Source of the DNA: Candidatus Puniceispirillum sp.
GTDB taxonomy: Bacteria; Pseudomonadota; Alphaproteobacteria; Puniceispirillales; Puniceispirillaceae
Assembly: GCA_028382965.1 (NCBI GenBank)
Contig: JAOEUK010000006.1
Location: 79,527-139,093, forward strand
Direction of reading: 5' to 3'
Length of the DNA stretch: 59,567 nt
The first letter of the stretch is position 1. Every line of letters starts with the position of its first letter. The notes below the pieces were generated by a model, which worked only from the letters and a program-made list of their open reading frames with translations, did no database searches and was not told the origin of the DNA. The translations under genes were made by a program, and so were the position numbers. Shown here piece by piece: positions 19,075-35,141 of the stretch.

Positions 19075-20853
19075 TTAGGCGCTTTGCTGTGGCCTCATAT
19101 CGCTGAGGCTAATGCCTGCAACTGATACTGGCTTTTTCATTGCATCACGGCGGAAGGGCTCACCAAGCTCTTGATTTAGCATCACTTCAATAAAGGTGGT
19201 TATGCCGTCCTTCATCTGGGCGTCAACTGCTTTTGCCAGCGCATCGCGAAGGTCATCCATGGAATAGACTGCTACACCTTCAACGCCGCACGCTTTTGCA
19301 ATATTAGCGTAAGATACCTGCTCATCAAGTTCGGTGCCAACAAAATTATCTTCGAACCATAATGTTGTATTGCGCTTTTCTGCGCCCCACTGGTAATTGC
19401 GGAAAATCACCATGGTTATGGCGGGCCATTCTTCACGACCAATGGCTGACATTTCATTCATGGAAATACCAAAGGCACCATCGCCAGCAAACCCAATAAC
19501 TGGCAAATCAGTCCGACCAATTTTTGCTCCCATAATTGATGGCAAACCATATCCGCAGGGTCCAAATAGACCTGGTGCAAGATATTTCCGTCCTTCTTCA
19601 AATGTTGGGTAAGCGTTGCCAATTGCGCAGTTGTTTCCGATGTCAGAGGAAATGATAGCATTTTCTGGAAGGGCGGACTGAATTGCACGCCAAGCCATGC
19701 GAGGTGACATTTTTGCCGGCTCACGGTTTCGTGCACGCTCGTTCCAAGTCGTGCCTGGATCATCATCCTCATGGTCAAGCGAGGTTAGTTCCTGTGCCCA
19801 GGCAGATTTGGTTTTAGCCACCAATTCTTTGCGGATGTTGCGGCCACTATCACCTGCAGTACTTGAAAGTTTTTCAAGAATACTTGTTGCAACTTTCTTT
19901 GCGTCACCGACAATGCCAATGCTAACCTTTTTTGTCAGGCCGATGCGATCCGGGTTGATGTCAACTTGAATAATTTTTGCATCTTTTGGCCAATAATCAA
20001 TGCCATAGCCGGGCAAAGTTGAAAATGGGTTTAGACGGGAGCCTAGAGCCAAAACAACATCGGCCTTAGCAATCAGTTCCATGCCGGCTTTTGATCCGTT
20101 GTAGCCAAGGGGGCCAGCAAATAATGGGTGTGATCCAGGAAACGCGTCATTGTGCTGATAGCCACAACAAACTGGAGAATCAAGGCGCTCAGCAAGCTTT
20201 ATTGAGGCTTCGATTGCGCCGCCAATAACAACGCCAGCACCGTTTAAGAGGACGGGGAATTCTGCCTTCGATAACAAATCAGCGGCTTTGGCGATGGCGT
20301 CTTCACCACCTGATGGACGCTCAAACTCAACAATAGCTGGAAGCTCAATATCTATTACTTGTGTCCAGAAATCGCGTGGAATATTAACCTGCGCTGGCGC
20401 TGAAGCACGTTTTGCCTGTAATATCACGCGATTTAAGGTTTCAGCAATTCGTGACGGATCACGAACTTCTTCCTGATAGGCAACCATGTCCTCAAAAAGT
20501 GCCATTTGTTCAACTTCCTGAAAGCCACCCTGACCGAGTGTTTTGTTAGCTGCTTGAGGAGTTACCAGCAATAATGGCGTGTGATTCCAGTAAGCTGTTT
20601 TTACCGGCGTTACAAAATTGGTAATTCCAGGACCGTTCTGAGCTACCATCATGGACATTTTGCCTGTAGCACGAGTAAAGCCGTCTGCCATCATGCCTGC
20701 ATTACATTCATGGGCAGCGTCCCAGAAGGTGATGCCAGCCTGAGGAAAGAGGTCGGATATGGGCATCATTGCAGAGCCAATAATACCAAAAGCGTTTTCA
20801 ATGCCATGCATTTGCAAGACTTTTACAAATGCTTCTTCAGTTGTCATTTTCAT
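19075..20853 (-). CDS. xsc: Sulfoacetaldehyde acetyltransferase
   Basis: Xsc is the thiamine-diphosphate enzyme that turns sulfoacetaldehyde and phosphate into acetyl phosphate and sulfite, the desulfonation step of taurine, isethionate and related C2 sulfonates. The 592-residue protein starts MKMTTEEAFVKVLQ and has IGSAMMPISDLFP, HECNAGMMADGF (catalytic Glu), NGPGITNFVTPVKTAYWNHTPLL, and the TPP-binding GFAGDGAFGISMNEM near residue 460. The motifs NGPGITNFVT and AYWNHTPLL separate it from acetolactate synthases. AAGGTGAG precedes the ATG. Neither phosphate acetyltransferase nor a sulfoacetaldehyde-producing enzyme is next to it. It diverges from the tauD-like gene by 381 bases. Confidence 0.95.
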   Translation of the reverse strand: MKMTTEEAFVKVLQMHGIENAFGIIGSAMMPISDLFPQAGITFWDAAHECNAGMMADGFTRATGKMSMMVAQNGPGITNFVTPVKTAYWNHTPLLLVTPQAANKTLGQGGFQEVEQMALFEDMVAYQEEVRDPSRIAETLNRVILQAKRASAPAQVNIPRDFWTQVIDIELPAIVEFERPSGGEDAIAKAADLLSKAEFPVLLNGAGVVIGGAIEASIKLAERLDSPVCCGYQHNDAFPGSHPLFAGPLGYNGSKAGMELIAKADVVLALGSRLNPFSTLPGYGIDYWPKDAKIIQVDINPDRIGLTKKVSIGIVGDAKKVATSILEKLSSTAGDSGRNIRKELVAKTKSAWAQELTSLDHEDDDPGTTWNERARNREPAKMSPRMAWRAIQSALPENAIISSDIGNNCAIGNAYPTFEEGRKYLAPGLFGPCGYGLPSIMGAKIGRTDLPVIGFAGDGAFGISMNEMSAIGREEWPAITMVIFRNYQWGAEKRNTTLWFEDNFVGTELDEQVSYANIAKACGVEGVAVYSMDDLRDALAKAVDAQMKDGITTFIEVMLNQELGEPFRRDAMKKPVSVAGISLSDMRPQQSA

Positions 20854-28708: not shown

Positions 28709-30673
28709 TTAGCGTCGCCGCTTAAGCGTGCCTTGTCCACCTTGCGGTGTAGCATTGCTTTTCTGATTGCTGCGCTTTTTTAGGACGGTAGAACGCGGCG
28801 AGGAACTGTTTTTCCCTGTGTCCGTATCAGACTTTACTTTGGATGATTTGTCTCCAAAATTTGGTCGTTTGTTAAAGCTTGGCTTACTACCAAAAGGTTT
28901 TTTACTTTTCGTTGTTGGCCTGCCAGGCTTTGCTTTGTCACCAAATGATTTTGCACTTGCTTCAGTCCTGCTTTCAAAGGGCTTTTTACTGCGTGATGGT
29001 TTGTTATTGAATGGTTTATTGTCTTTAACGGACTTGTCATCACGTGTGGACCACTCATTAGAAGTGCGCTGTGGCTTCACGCCTTTACTGTTTTGATTGG
29101 TGTTGTGATTTTCGCGCTTACCATTTTTGCGTGATCGATCATCACGGTTTGGTCGATCATCACGGTTTGGTCGATCATCACGGTTTGGTCGTTCATCACG
29201 GTTTGGTCGTTCATTACGATTTGGTCGTTCATCACGATTTGGTCGATCATCACGATTTGGTCGTTCATCACGATTTGGTCGAAATGAACGTTCAGGTTTT
29301 GAGCCCGTTGGTTTTTTGGTGCGTGTTGGATTACCCGCTGCTCGCCCACGACCAGCCATTGGTCGACTGTCACTACGATTGCTTTTTGCCCGTTCGCTAC
29401 CGCCAACGTTTGGCCGGCCAGAAGGCCGCCGCTCCCCTTGTGGTGAGCGGCGACGGCTGCGAGAAGGTGCGCTTCCAGATTTGAAATCAGAAACAGGGGT
29501 GCCATCTAGTTCAAAAAGTTCAACTCGAGGGCCCACCATCGAGATGATTGCGCCCAACTTGTGCCTCTCATCTGGTGCGCAAAAGGATATGGCTAAACCA
29601 CCGAGGCCTGCGCGACCAGTTCGCCCAATTCGATGGACATATGATTCTGGCGTGTCAGTAAGATCAAAATTGATCACATGACTGAGGCCAGCCACATCAA
29701 TGCCACGTGCGGCAACATCCGTTGCAATCAGCGCGCGCAATTCACCACTTCGAAAATTCCGAAGGACTTTTTGCCTTAAAGTCTGCCGCATATCTCCGTG
29801 TAAAGCATCAACCTTAAAGCCACGAACGCTCATGAATTTTGCTAGTGCATCAGCGCGGCGTTTTGTACGCACAAAGATAAGAGTCTGTCCTGTATCCTTT
29901 TCATTTAAAATATCACAAAGTCTATCTCGCTTATCGCTTTCTGCCATTAGTGTGACACGTTGTGTGACCTTGTCAGCAGTAATGCCGGTTTGTGGGGCTT
30001 TGACATTGACTGGATCAGTCAGGAATTCATTAGCTAGTTTTTCAATTGCAGGTGGCATAGTTGCAGAGAACAACATTGTTTGCCGGTTGCGAGGTATGCT
30101 GGAAGCAATACGTTTAATTGGTGGATAAAAACCCAGGTCAAGCATGTGATCTGCTTCATCAAGAACAAAGTGGGTAATGCCGCTAGGATCAAAAGCACCG
30201 CGGTCCATTAAATCCTCTAGACGGCCAGGTGTGGCAACTACAATATCAACTCCGCGTCGCAAGCCTTTGATTTGCGCATCGTAACGTGCTCCCCCGAATA
30301 TGGCTAAATGGCGGATGTTGAGATCTGCTGACAGCTTGCTAACGCTCTGATCGAGCTGGTTTGCTAATTCCCGGGTTGGGGCAAGGATCAATGCCTTTGG
30401 GGGATGTCCCGCTCGTACCGCTGCGCTGTAGCCAAGGTGGGTCATTAAGGGTAGTAAAAAAGCAGCAGTTTTGCCGGTGCCAGTTTGTGCAAGTCCAATT
30501 AAATCTTTGCCCGAAAGCAATAAGGGGATCGACATGGCTTGAATTGGTGTTGGTGCTGTTAGCCCCTCGCGCGCTAGAGTCGCAAGCATGAGTTCGGGCA
30601 ATCCAAAGCTGTCAAAACCAACGGCAGAGTTTGAGGCCGAGCTTTCGGCAGGGTCGTTGTTTGTATTTGACAT
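28709..30673 (-). CDS. DEAD-box RNA helicase with long basic repeat-containing tail
   Basis: Residues 1-380 are a full DEAD-box ATPase: Q-motif (TPIQAMSIPLLL), motif I QTGTGKT, Ia PTRELANQ, II DEAD, III SAT, V ATDVAARGIDVAG and VI HRIGRTGRAG. The RhlE-like branch is likely. After about residue 395 the protein is low-complexity, rich in arginine, asparagine, lysine, glycine and serine, including eight RPNRD(D/E)-type hexapeptides (DNA 29138-29281), then SKKPFGSKP-like segments. Such tails bind RNA and promote condensates or cold tolerance in related helicases. The ATP-dependent unwinding role is certain; the target RNA is not. It stands alone, with convergent and divergent neighbours. Confidence 0.93.
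   Translation of the reverse strand: MSNTNNDPAESSASNSAVGFDSFGLPELMLATLAREGLTAPTPIQAMSIPLLLSGKDLIGLAQTGTGKTAAFLLPLMTHLGYSAAVRAGHPPKALILAPTRELANQLDQSVSKLSADLNIRHLAIFGGARYDAQIKGLRRGVDIVVATPGRLEDLMDRGAFDPSGITHFVLDEADHMLDLGFYPPIKRIASSIPRNRQTMLFSATMPPAIEKLANEFLTDPVNVKAPQTGITADKVTQRVTLMAESDKRDRLCDILNEKDTGQTLIFVRTKRRADALAKFMSVRGFKVDALHGDMRQTLRQKVLRNFRSGELRALIATDVAARGIDVAGLSHVINFDLTDTPESYVHRIGRTGRAGLGGLAISFCAPDERHKLGAIISMVGPRVELFELDGTPVSDFKSGSAPSRSRRRSPQGERRPSGRPNVGGSERAKSNRSDSRPMAGRGRAAGNPTRTKKPTGSKPERSFRPNRDERPNRDDRPNRDERPNRNERPNRDERPNRDDRPNRDDRPNRDDRSRKNGKRENHNTNQNSKGVKPQRTSNEWSTRDDKSVKDNKPFNNKPSRSKKPFESRTEASAKSFGDKAKPGRPTTKSKKPFGSKPSFNKRPNFGDKSSKVKSDTDTGKNSSSPRSTVLKKRSNQKSNATPQGGQGTLKRRR
29138..29281 (-). 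repeat. Eight 18-base tandem repeats in the helicase tail
   Basis: Eight consecutive 18-base units each encode RPNRDD, RPNRDE or RPNRNE. Copies differ mostly at the wobble position and by GAT/GAA, so the array expanded a while ago and has partly diverged. Open frames on the opposite strand here are by-products of the repeat. Confidence 0.95.
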
Positions 30674-31055
30674 TGATTTATTTTCTAGCGCATGGCTTTT
30701 TGCGAGGGTAGCATCGCCCCGAGCGCGCCACTTCTATCGGCGGGTTATGCGCCCTAGTGTAGCTTTTGTCAATGAATGGTAAAATTGTATGGCGCTAAAC
30801 CCTGAACAAAATGTATTGGTGGGCTTGTCCAGGATTATTAAAAGTTCACAAAATCAGTTGGACTAGTATTTCATGATGCTTTCAGGCAGGGGAGGGTCTC
30901 GATCCGGTGGCTCATTAGAATAGAGCAAGAGATTTCTCATAGGGGTTTCAAACAAATTGGCGATAATAATTTTCATAAAAAGATATATTAGATCAAATGA
31001 ACAATTCAATAAAACATAAGTGAATATCATTAATATTAATTTTGATAATTAGTAG
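30674..31055. other. Gene-free spacer between the helicase and tRNA-Arg
   Basis: These 382 bases contain no coding frame with a sensible start and no recognisable RNA or repeat. The left part carries the helicase promoter; the part next to the tRNA 3' end is AT-rich, with no integrase gene or obvious attachment site. Confidence 0.55.
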
Positions 31056-31360
31056 TGGTGATCTCGACAAGACTCGAACTTGTTACCCCCAGATTCATCA
31101 CACTACAGTTTTCACTGCCATTCCAAGTGGAATGTTTGTGCGCTGGACTTTCTCTTTACCATTGAAACAAAAAAATTTTATTTCATTCCGGTAGGTACTG
31201 CCTGTTAAGTCTCTACACGTTTCCCTGTGTTGGGACTTCGCTCGGGATTGCCATTCTAAAGGTTTCCCCGAATTTAAGCAGTTCTACATTCACCGTTTCC
31301 AGTGATGCACCCAATCTCTTACTAGGAATCTGGTGCTCTATCCAGATGAGCTACGAGACC
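31056..31360 (-). tRNA. tRNA-Arg(CCU) interrupted by a group I intron
   Basis: Read on the minus strand from 31360, the exons give a full cloverleaf. The acceptor stem pairs GGTCTCG with CGAGATC (one G-U), then comes the D-arm GCTC/GAGC. The anticodon stem is CCAGA/TCTGG, with a seven-base loop TTCCTAA (anticodon CCT). The T-arm is ACAAG-TTCGAGT-CTTGT, followed by discriminator A and an encoded CCA. The 5' exon is 37 nt (31324-31360) and the 3' exon 40 nt (31056-31095). The intron sits after U36, in the anticodon loop, as in the Agrobacterium tRNA-Arg(CCU) and Azoarcus tRNA-Ile(CAU) genes. It reads AGG codons. Confidence 0.95.
31096..31323 (-). ncRNA. Group I (IC3-type) self-splicing intron in tRNA-Arg(CCU)
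   Basis: The 228-base insertion between the anticodon-loop exons follows group I rules. The 5' exon ends in U36, pairing as CCU with an internal guide GGG in ATTGGGTGC to form P1, and the intron ends in G. The core blocks match the Azoarcus intron: AAATTCGGGGAAACC, GGCAATCCCGAGC, GTGTAGAGACTTAACAGGCAGTACCTACC, AAGTCCAG, with a closing AAAGAGAAAGTCCAGCGCAC. There is no open reading frame or homing endonuclease, so it should be a small ribozyme that must splice to give functional tRNA-Arg. Confidence 0.93.
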
Positions 31361-31482
31361 ATCCACTACGGATACTAATTAACATATAACTAATAAATAA
31401 TGAAGTCCTGTTTATCTTTCACCAATGTATACAATGTTCTAAACGCATCTCTGTAGAGGTTTCCGATATATAGGCTTTCTTT

Positions 31483-32238: not shown

Positions 32239-33348
32239 ATGAAGACACGAGCAGCAGTAGCAGTTGAGGCCGGAAAGCCATTAGAAATAATGGAAGTGGA
32301 TCTTGGTGGTCCACGTCAGGGCGAAGTGCTGGTTGAAATCATGGCAACCGGAATCTGTCACACAGATGAATTCACCTTATCTGGTGCTGACCCTGAAGGT
32401 ATGTTTCCAGCCATTCTTGGCCATGAGGGTGCTGGCATTGTTCGTGAGATGGGCCCGGGTGTCACCAGCGTTGAAGTGGGGGATCATGTAATCCCCCTTT
32501 ATACACCTGAGTGTCGTGAATGTGATTATTGCCTGCATCCAAAAACAAATCTATGTCAGGCAATTCGAACCACACAAGGCCAGGGGGTTATGCCAGATGG
32601 TACAAGCCGTTTCTCAATAAAGGGAAAGCCTGTTTTGCATTATATGGGAACTTCAACATTCTCTAATTTCACGGTTGTGCCTGAGATTGCACTTGCGAAA
32701 GTAGCCAAGGCCGCGCCGTTTGATAAGATTTGTTATATTGGTTGCGGTGTGACGACGGGTATTGGCGCCGTGATTAACACAGCCAAAGCTGAGCCGGGTT
32801 GTGTTGGGGTGGTCTTTGGTCTTGGTGGCATTGGCCTTAATGTTGTCCAAGGTTTGCGCATGATTGGTGCAGGAATGATTGTTGGCGTTGATATGAATGA
32901 CGATAAAAAATCCTGGGGTGAACAGTTTGGAATGACCCATTTTGTCAATCCATCCAAGATCAAGGGTGACCTTGTTGGCCATCTTGTCGAATTAACAGGT
33001 GGAGGAGCCGATTATTCATTTGAGTGCATAGGCAATGTGAATGTAATGCGCCAGGCACTGGAGTGTGCGCATAAGGGATGGGGTGAGTCTATTATCATCG
33101 GTGTGGCTGGTGCTGGCCAAGAAATTAGTACTCGTCCATTCCAACTGGTGACTGGCCGTAGTTGGCGTGGCACAGCTTTTGGTGGAGCACGTGGTAGAAC
33201 AGATGTACCGAAGATTGTCGATTGGTACATGGATGGAAAGATTGATATTGATCCAATGATTACCCATACCTTGTCATTGGATGAAATCAATAAAGGTTTT
33301 GATCTGATGCATGCTGGTGAATCCATTCGCTCGGTTGTGGTCTATTGA
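32239..33348 (+). CDS. adhC: S-(hydroxymethyl)glutathione dehydrogenase / class III alcohol dehydrogenase
   Basis: This NAD-dependent zinc dehydrogenase (369 residues) oxidises the formaldehyde-glutathione adduct to S-formylglutathione, and can also reduce S-nitrosoglutathione. Evidence is the catalytic-zinc region [17 protein letters not shown] with [15 protein letters not shown], the structural-zinc cysteine cluster [15 protein letters not shown] near residues 95-110, and the Rossmann [16 protein letters not shown] near 195. [19 protein letters not shown] is distinctive of class III enzymes. AGGAGG precedes the ATG. The stop overlaps the fghA ATG by one base, making a two-gene formaldehyde operon. 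Cellular source of formaldehyde is not shown here. Confidence 0.96.
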
Positions 33349-34175
33349 TGGAAGTAATTTCCAAAAATAACTCACATGGCGGAGTTCAAGGCGTTTACAG
33401 ACATGCTTCTGACATCACTATGTGTGAAATGACTTTTGCTCTTTTTTTGCCGCCGTTGGGATTAACACCTCCACCGGTTCTTTGGTATTTGTCGGGCCTG
33501 ACTTGTAATCACTCCAATGTAATGGAAAAGGGTGAATATAGGCGGTTAGCAGCTGAGCTAGGTATTGCCATTGTTTGCCCTGATACAAGCCCAAGGGGAG
33601 AAAATGTGCCAGATGAGGCTGACAATTGGCAATTTGGTTCAGGCGCGGGATTTTATCTAGACGCTACGGAAGCTCCTTTTTCGACGAATTATAAAATGTA
33701 TTCATATATTTTAAATGAATTAACAGATTTGGTTGCTGAAAATTTTTCTGTTGATATGACCCGTCAGGGGGTCTTTGGTCACTCTATGGGCGGGCATGGG
33801 GCACTTGTTATGGCAATAAGACAACCAGGCCGCTTTAAAAGCTGTTCAGCTTTTGCACCAATTGTTCAGCCGATGACTGCAGATTGGTCAAGTTCAGCAT
33901 TTGCTAAATATCTTGGTGAAGAGAAAGAAACATGGCGGGCTTACGATGCTGTTGCCTTGATTGAGGATGGGTATAGGTTCCCAAGTATCCTTGTAGACCA
34001 AGGTGAGGCGGACAGCTTTCTTGAAAGTGGATTGCGGCCGTGGCTACTTGAAAAAGCATGTAAAGATGCTGGTATGAAATTGGATTTACGAATACATCCT
34101 GGATTTGATCATTCTTATTTTTTTATTTCGACTTTTATGGAGGATCATTTAAGGTGGCACAGTTCTAGTCTTTGA
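33348..34175 (+). CDS. fghA: S-formylglutathione hydrolase
   Basis: A 275-residue alpha/beta-hydrolase (esterase D family) that cleaves S-formylglutathione to formate and glutathione. The nucleophile Ser146 lies in GHSMGGHGAL; the catalytic Asp is in LVDQGEADSFL and the His in HPGFDHSYFF. YLSGLTCNHSNVMEKGEYRR, CPDTSPRGENVPDE and NWQFGSGAGFYLDAT are classic blocks. The ATG at 33348 overlaps the adhC stop; the TTG three bases upstream is an alternative. Together with AdhC it completes glutathione-dependent formaldehyde detoxification. No formate dehydrogenase is adjacent. Confidence 0.96.
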   Translation: MEVISKNNSHGGVQGVYRHASDITMCEMTFALFLPPLGLTPPPVLWYLSGLTCNHSNVMEKGEYRRLAAELGIAIVCPDTSPRGENVPDEADNWQFGSGAGFYLDATEAPFSTNYKMYSYILNELTDLVAENFSVDMTRQGVFGHSMGGHGALVMAIRQPGRFKSCSAFAPIVQPMTADWSSSAFAKYLGEEKETWRAYDAVALIEDGYRFPSILVDQGEADSFLESGLRPWLLEKACKDAGMKLDLRIHPGFDHSYFFISTFMEDHLRWHSSSL

Positions 34176-34346: not shown

Positions 34347-35141
34347 TTGGACATGAATGAAGTTGTGCAAAATAAGATTGATTATTTATTACTCGCCAAA
34401 CAGTTAATTCCGGCTGTGCGTAAAGCTGGCAATGTTATTATTGATATTTATCAGCGTGGTGCTGTTGCCCAGCTAAAGCCTGATGGCAGTCCGGTCAGTG
34501 ATGCTGATATGGCGGCAGAGGCGATTTTGTTGCCAGCAATAAAGGCTGCTGCGCCATTCATCCCGATAGTTTCAGAAGAGAATTCAGCAAGTCATAACCT
34601 TGTCGATGCAGAACAGTTTTTCTTGGTTGACCCGCTGGATGGTACTAAGGAATTTTTAAAGTCAGATGGTAGTGGAGCTTTTACTGTGAACATTGGCCTT
34701 ATTGAAAATAAAATTCCAGTGATGGGAATTGTGTATGCGCCAGCTCTCGATAGATTATTTTTTTCCGGCCTTAACGCTGGTGCCTTTGAAATGACTAATG
34801 AAAGAAGTTTTAAGATCGGTGTCCGGTCACTGCCATTTAACGGCAGTGTTGCGGTTGCGAGTGCGTCACACATGGACAGTAAAACAGATCAATGGCTGAA
34901 CGCTCGAGGCATTGTTCAAACCGTGTCTATAGGATCGTCGTTAAAATTCTGTTTGATTGCTGCCGGTGAAGCTGATGTTTATCCTCGCTATGGCCCAACA
35001 ATGGAGTGGGATACAGCTGCTGGTGATGCAATTTTAAGGGCAGCAGGTGGGCGTGTTGAAGGTGAGGATGGAAAGACTTTCTACTATGGAAAGCCGCAGT
35101 ATCTTAATACAGCATTTTTTGCTTTTGGAAGTTTGATATAA
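34347..35141 (+). CDS. cysQ: 3'(2'),5'-bisphosphate nucleotidase (CysQ)
   Basis: The 264-residue member of the inositol-monophosphatase fold removes the 3' phosphate of PAP (or PAPS), a by-product of sulfate assimilation. It shows the substrate/metal motif SDADMAAEAIL near residue 50, the acidic VSEEN segment, DPLDGTKEFLKSDGSGAFTVNIGLIE (DPLDGT/KEF, near residue 95-115) and the late YGPTMEWDTAAGDAILRAAGG, all typical of CysQ. A TTG start at 34347 fits an AGAAGGAG seven bases upstream better than the ATG at 34353. It stands alone between the formaldehyde operon and the convergent gmhA-like gene. Confidence 0.92.
   Translation: MDMNEVVQNKIDYLLLAKQLIPAVRKAGNVIIDIYQRGAVAQLKPDGSPVSDADMAAEAILLPAIKAAAPFIPIVSEENSASHNLVDAEQFFLVDPLDGTKEFLKSDGSGAFTVNIGLIENKIPVMGIVYAPALDRLFFSGLNAGAFEMTNERSFKIGVRSLPFNGSVAVASASHMDSKTDQWLNARGIVQTVSIGSSLKFCLIAAGEADVYPRYGPTMEWDTAAGDAILRAAGGRVEGEDGKTFYYGKPQYLNTAFFAFGSLI

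Follow-up and report, generated by a model that had tools for sequence, protein, structure and literature searches.

The tRNA gene content of a 59,567-base stretch of DNA (hereafter, the window) was evaluated using ARAGORN. With introns allowed, the sole gene found was a tRNA-Arg(cct) on the complement of 31056-31360, with a 228-nt intron and the junction ttcct/aatct; without introns, zero tRNA genes were called across the 59,567 bases. The exons form a complete cloverleaf with an encoded CCA, and the 228-base insert follows exon U36 and ends in G, just as the initial annotation had read them. The features of the locus are listed in Table 1, in which gene names beyond the Pfam matches are loose labels. 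The helicase gene carries a long C-terminal tail with NRDERPNRDD-type repeats, which produces overlapping false open frames. At 32239-34175, the window holds zinc alcohol dehydrogenase and esterase genes with the look of formaldehyde detoxification, and the congeners examined hold other cargo in this slot.

Table 1. Features of the tRNA-Arg(CCU) locus in the window.
Feature	Position	Strand	Basis
DEAD-box helicase gene	28709..30673	-	Pfam PF00270, PF00271; synteny: adjoins the native tRNA locus of congeners
Relic 5' half, decayed, of the native intronless tRNA-Arg(CCU), placed and oriented as the native gene	30903..30941	+	31/39 identical to the intact G020 half
Spacer, relic half to tRNA	30942..31055	.	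Unbroken alignment with the G020 element end; weakest part of the alignment
3' exon of tRNA-Arg(CCU), 40 nt, start AATCTGG, encoded CCA at end	31056..31095	-	ARAGORN
Group I intron, 228 nt, start AGTAAGAG, end GTGATG	31096..31323	-	ARAGORN, Rfam RF00028, model R1, covariation
Internal guide start, GATTGGG	31309..31315 (GATTGGG at 31316-31310)	-	Read from the sequence
5' exon of tRNA-Arg(CCU), 37 nt, ending ..GATTCCT (U36)	31324..31360	-	ARAGORN
Inositol-monophosphatase-family gene	34347..35141	+	Pfam PF00459; synteny: far border of the variable slot in several of the congeners

The group I identity of the insert was confirmed by ARAGORN, Rfam and covariation, which agree on it. The Rfam model RF00028 matched at 31333-31121, end to end over model positions 1-253, with 52.6 bits (E 1.5e-10) against a gathering score of 50; this was the lone Rfam match in the window at the gathering threshold, and no second RF00028 match was found anywhere in the window's genome. 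Because the margin over the cut-off is small, a further model (R1) was built from four related introns, and it matched at 31315-31144. The fold energy lay 3.9 sd below that of shuffled sequences, with 0 of 200 shuffles as good. Furthermore, a 44-pair group I structure, to which the P7 pseudoknot was added by hand, was evaluated on 13 related introns, distant ones in other orders included. Standard pairs made up 97.9% of cells and both sides had changed in 28 of the 44 pairs, in an alignment that was fitted to the model and so leans towards it; none of 500 shuffles and none of six slid versions reached these values. The four P7 pairs are uninformative because they never vary, and the least well paired helices were helix 1 (95.3%) and helix 9 (92.9%). 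Together, the RF00028 match and the 44-pair structure, with its invariant P7, define a conserved P3-P8 core with a P3/P7 pseudoknot. The insert is thus a group I intron that interrupts a complete tRNA-Arg(CCU) in its anticodon loop; it is a candidate member of subgroup IC3, that of the Azoarcus and cyanobacterial tRNA introns, Rfam having one general group I model. Upstream of the gene, one promoter was found against 4.7 expected, and neither this number nor that of terminators near the gene was above chance.

The splice sites are those of a group I intron, with U36 opposite the guide G in the Rfam alignment and GATG at the intron end, and the identical site after U36 is used in 11 intact intron-bearing tRNA-Arg(CCU) genes. 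The P1 part of the Rfam alignment contains two mismatched pairs. As read from the sequence, GGG of the guide may base-pair with CCU of the 5' exon, which puts a U.G pair at the splice site, and GATT with AATC of the 3' exon (P10). In the predicted reaction, the pre-tRNA would fold into a ribozyme whose guide, GAUUGGG, could hold both exon ends; guanosine would attack after U36 (CCU/AGUA), the freed CCU would attack after the terminal intron G (GAUG/AAUC), and the joined exons would give a normal tRNA with the anticodon CCU. The ribozyme kind itself is already known, and the new part is the route by which the gene arrived.

The native state of the locus is visible in the genus, where eight of 16 genomes (G001, G005, G008, G009, G010, G013, G014 and G015) carry an intact intronless tRNA-Arg(CCU) there. 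This native gene adjoins the helicase gene, is divergent from it and is encoded on the other strand from the window's intron-bearing gene. The locus is disrupted in four of the 16 genomes: the window's own, G004, which contains an element, G006, which retains the native 5' half at 87% together with two foreign-type copies, and G002, which has the native 3' half alone, at a contig end. A native copy was not found in G003, G007, G011 and G012, some of which are incomplete genomes. In G006 (L068:4304-6779), the relic 5' half is followed by the two tRNA-Arg(CCU) copies, the second of them diverged, around an asparagine-synthase-like gene.

Between the helicase gene and the intron-bearing gene, the window retains a decayed native 5' half. 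This relic scored 46, compared with 25 for the best of 1000 shuffles, and against the half of a congener it scored 44, compared with 30 for the best of 304 other window blocks. Moreover, the relic, the spacer and the inverted intron-bearing tRNA (window 30903-31406) align in one piece with the genome G020 (73% over 525 columns, E 1e-79), a similarity that lies mostly in the tRNA and intron and is the basis of both halves of the claim developed below, and a 36-nt flank at 30739-30774 also aligns to G020. No integrase was found in the window, where 21 element proteins used as queries gave no match, and an integrase profile at E 1e-20 gave no match in the window's genome. The native 3' half was likewise not found in the window (best score 27, as high in 28 of 1000 shuffles); the segment 34152-34172 was dropped as a candidate for it, since 28 of 1000 shuffles reach it. 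Because no integrase, other element protein or native 3' half is left, the putative element of the window is recognized from one end only. That one end remains, whereas a tRNA-targeting island would show an integrase gene and a second target fragment.

The same arrangement is intact in G020, a single contig, in which the sequences, positions and orientations, the element ends and the integrase gene can be read directly. The native gene lies there in two pieces 16.4 kb apart, bases 33-77 at 1496944-1496988 and bases 1-40 at 1513379-1513418, identical to the congener gene at 45/45 positions in the 3' half and 40/40 in the 5' half. The halves overlap in an 8-bp core, TTCCTAAT, which is the anticodon loop. 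A resolvase and a tyrosine integrase (L209:3215-4450, Pfam PF00589) adjoin the native 3' half, and the intron-bearing tRNA-Arg(CCU) lies inside the element, inverted, 127 nt from the native 5' half. The cargo comprises an Hsp70-like protein, a TerB domain, an M48 peptidase, two methyltransferases, a T5orf172 protein and an HNH-HIT protein. As in tRNA-targeting islands, the integrase lies at one end and the target is directly repeated; in place of a fragment restoring the split tRNA, the element carries a whole intron-bearing one. No CCU tRNA was found elsewhere in G020 among the 31 typed of its 34 RF00005 places; the remaining three are 84-89 nt, as Leu and Ser tRNAs are. In the same element, the T5orf172-domain protein (L209:14807-15409) matches the PADLOC candidate defence family PDC-S57 (E 3e-67).

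Elements at the same core were also found in G004 (9.4 kb) and G016 (9.1 kb). Within each of them lies a complete tRNA-Arg(CCU) that is foreign, intronless and in native orientation, and in both genomes the 3' piece reaches base 20 at 93%. Judged from the end sequences, neither element end restores the native gene in G020, G004 or G016. The integrases of G004 and G016 are 79% identical, and those of G016 and G020 share 36% over 395 residues. An integrase profile (E 1e-20) detected relatives in 17 of the order's 136 genomes, and several of these relatives adjoin other tRNA genes or tRNA pieces. An integrase alignment search of genome_contigs and viral_contigs, sets from which G020 itself is possibly absent, confirmed no relative, and tblastn with the G020 integrase gave no match in the phage collection.

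These observations point to replacement of the gene. Most probably, the sole CCU gene found here is an intron-bearing substitute: an integrase element would have split the native gene, supplied a tRNA of its own and then decayed. A native intronless tRNA-Arg(CCU) would have stood at the locus on the other strand, and a tyrosine-integrase element would have entered that gene through the 8-bp core of the anticodon loop, orphaning both halves. Just inside its end, the element would have supplied a whole, inverted, intron-bearing tRNA-Arg(CCU). The window's element would then have decayed to the native 5' half, the spacer and the replacement tRNA, its relative in G020 staying intact, and the replacement would have been left behind, by then the only CCU gene. 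Splicing, transfer and integration by the G020 integrase are steps that we infer from sequence. The initial annotation had noted that an intron in this lineage, which is the SAR116 cluster, would bear on vertical or lateral inheritance. Part of that question now has a probable answer, namely that at this locus an element-borne, intron-bearing copy replaced a native intronless gene, a replacement which that reading had missed.

We weighed this origin against acquisition of the intron in place, in which the native gene would have acquired the intron through homing or reverse splicing, or retained an ancestral one since lost by relatives, before a later local inversion, with the relic as a by-product of the inversion or of an old tRNA duplication. 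The R1 model matched 5 of the 61 family genomes, 9 of the 136 order genomes and 49 of 385 genomes sampled from the class; where more than 40 genomes were searched, the filters were strict and lose weak matches. Within SAR116, ARAGORN typing places the intron in tRNA-Arg(CCU) in the window, G020, G065 and G047 and in a decayed copy in G006. In favour of acquisition in place, G047, a member of a different family within the order, has its intron-bearing gene in the native place and orientation, and its congeners G038 and G044 are intronless there. Because of this arrangement, the intron can evidently also be gained or lost in place, and the notion that it always arrives with an element was discarded. 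In other orders of the class, where 28 of the 47 genomes with an R1 match were typed, seven of the 28 typed loci are in tRNA-Arg(CCU). Around nine other intron-bearing tRNA-Arg(CCU) loci, no relic half was seen within 1.5 kb. However, had the native gene been inverted, its own 5' half would not have stayed behind in native orientation, and the same arrangement in G020 is plainly one end of an integrase element that preserves both native halves. We consequently regard acquisition in place as unlikely for the window.

Replacement by an element is further supported by G065, where the spacer and the inverted intron-bearing tRNA occur at another locus with 84.5% similarity to G020 over 427 nt. The gene is inverted there relative to that of the congener G031, which is intronless; the G065 relic has no significance on its own, though it lines up in the multiple alignment. 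The intron sites in the SAR116 order outside tRNA-Arg(CCU) are in tRNA-Thr (three), in a gene labelled Gln (one) and at a place with no called tRNA (G038). The first four are group I introns at L160, L161, L163 and L158 (G044, G041, G047 and G073), three in tRNA-Thr(GGU) and one in the ARAGORN 'Gln'.

The descent of the intron was assessed with a structure-guided tree of 42 introns. All typed tRNA-Arg(CCU) introns fell into one clade (UFBoot 99), together with one locus typed His; within it, the window intron grouped with that of G047 (UFBoot 88) and not with those of G020 and G065. A larger tree placed all five SAR116 introns together (0.905). In that larger tree, to which viral introns had been added, the tRNA-Arg(CCU) clade was not recovered and two separate groups appeared. 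A search of genome_contigs for the intron pattern gave three stretches: two SAR116 single cells (AG-343-K16 and AG-895-F06), already in the genome set, and an archaeal MAG, which was rejected as a chance match without tRNA or intron core.

The need for the gene was assessed in the window's genome, G000, that of a marine SAR116 bacterium (39 contigs, 99.63% complete). RF00005 found 34 further tRNA places, 30 + 4 of them typed by ARAGORN, with the arginine anticodons ACG, CCG, TCG (twice) and TCT. A second tRNA-Arg(CCU) was not found among these 34 further places of the 99.6%-complete genome. Across 40 open frames in the window, 54 of the 761 arginine codons are AGG. The initial annotation had held that the ribozyme must act before AGG codons can be read. 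This is too strong, because a tRNA-Arg(UCU) is present (G000:C17:7567), and such a tRNA is expected to read AGG by wobble. It is also conceivable that the window gene is inactive, like the decayed intron-bearing copy of G006, which has position 33 changed and acceptor arms no longer complementary and lies beside intronless genes, and that AGG is read by tRNA-Arg(UCU) alone. The presence of tRNA-Arg(UCU) in the window's genome fits such a state, yet the window gene keeps a complete cloverleaf with CCA and an intact intron core, AGG is in use and no second CCU gene was found, which makes an inactive copy highly improbable. The tRNA-Arg(CCU) of the window is presumably essential to the host.

The position of the intron raises the question of its role. 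The intron site lies inside TTCCTAAT, so that the core is split in the DNA, which suggests shielding: the intron between U36 and A37 might hide the replacement from the element's integrase, and splicing would restore the core in the RNA. The core that contains this site is common to the three intact elements, and the window DNA reads TTCCTAGT in its place. Moreover, the inverted replacements (window, G020 and G065) are the intron-bearing ones, and an intact core in that orientation could let the integrase flip the segment. Shielding is not general, however, as the intronless G016 replacement keeps the core with its flanking stem and that of G006 keeps the core, which also rules out that the core is always broken in replacements; furthermore, the same intron site is used in lineages where no such element was seen. 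We consider shielding doubtful on balance. An equally tentative extension is that SAR116 elements seize an essential tRNA slot: they would cut the resident tRNA-Arg(CCU) and install their own tRNA, the host would become dependent once the halves decay, and in one branch an intron would shield the substitute.

Discussion of bacterial tRNA introns has treated them as relics of vertical descent or as movers from allele to allele, and alphaproteobacteria such as Agrobacterium carry group I introns in tRNA-Arg(CCU). The window intron shares with the Agrobacterium-type introns the tRNA, the site after U36 and the core; it differs in its host gene, an inverted replacement beside a native relic, whereas no relic was seen near the nine other intron loci. 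Lateral movement of a tRNA gene together with its intron has a possible counterpart in cyanobacteria, for which Rudi in 2002 reportedly described, to go by the title, recombination of the whole intron-bearing tRNA-Leu(UAA) locus. Recombination would be the means there, whereas here an integrase element would first have split the resident gene.

Among mobile elements, those of G020, G004 and G016 resemble the Islander islands in the tyrosine integrase near one end, the crossover in the anticodon loop and the direct repeat of part of the tRNA (PMC4383910). Under the Islander rule, the split gene is made whole again by a tRNA fragment that the island carries; in the three elements described here, neither end does so, both halves are orphaned and a whole separate tRNA is carried (PMC4383910). 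Tycheposons are described as cargo-carrying elements, found in marine bacteria, that have a tyrosine recombinase and are bordered by a tRNA gene (PMC10872708), and by this description the SAR116 elements are like them in both the border tRNA and the recombinase; the word 'intron' has 0 occurrences in that paper (PMC10872708). An element that swaps a tRNA for a whole intron-bearing one was not found described in the open-access literature, including passages of PMC4383910, PMC10872708, PMC11476347, PMC3984707, PMC6125680 and PMC10580990, which is weak evidence of novelty, as most subscription literature lies outside it.

What appears new is an intron-bearing tRNA as cargo, used by a mobile element to replace the tRNA gene resident in the host. 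If true, this would be a direct route for the lateral spread of tRNA introns, and it would explain patchy intron occurrence in a genus in which the intact intronless gene is present in every second genome. In addition, the intact element of G020 and the decayed one of the window would form a natural case in which to ask if a self-splicing intron can protect a gene from site-specific integration.

Phages were also considered as a source of the intron. A P2-P3 DNA pattern found 0 stretches in viral_contigs, and the pattern CCTAN{4,14}ATTGGGTGCATC found 69 stretches in the same set, which on individual inspection contained no such intron. A phage origin was rejected: among the 121 pattern matches listed (in 120 viral stretches), 77 lie in tRNA genes and 0 in Arg(CCU). 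The 77 are group I introns of the same kind (L248-L367, for example L266, L281, L333 and L346), in genes that often lie among other tRNA genes. RF00028 passes L266 (66.5 bits) and fails L333, and the ARAGORN labels of the viral loci are partly wrong, L270 being called 'Tyr' with Leu-like exons. The viral tRNA-gene introns listed here contrast with the statement, in a 2014 paper, that all phage introns then known were in protein-coding genes (PMC3984707).

Three further relatives were observed on phage and plasmid records. A 735-kb uncultured phage record (LR756501, L062:2943-3233) carries a tRNA-Leu(UAA) with a 205-nt intron that is 77.5% similar to the window intron over 109 nt. In a marine Autographiviridae phage (KT997847), two intron-model matches (L063:19253-19396 and 19964-20105) flank a capsid-annotated CDS with a second capsid-named CDS adjacent, possibly an intron-split capsid gene. 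Finally, a Bradyrhizobium conjugative plasmid (NZ_CP094524, L064:5933-6222) carries a tRNA-Leu(UAA) with a 204-nt group I intron, with a short hypothetical gene on one side and the trb operon on the other.
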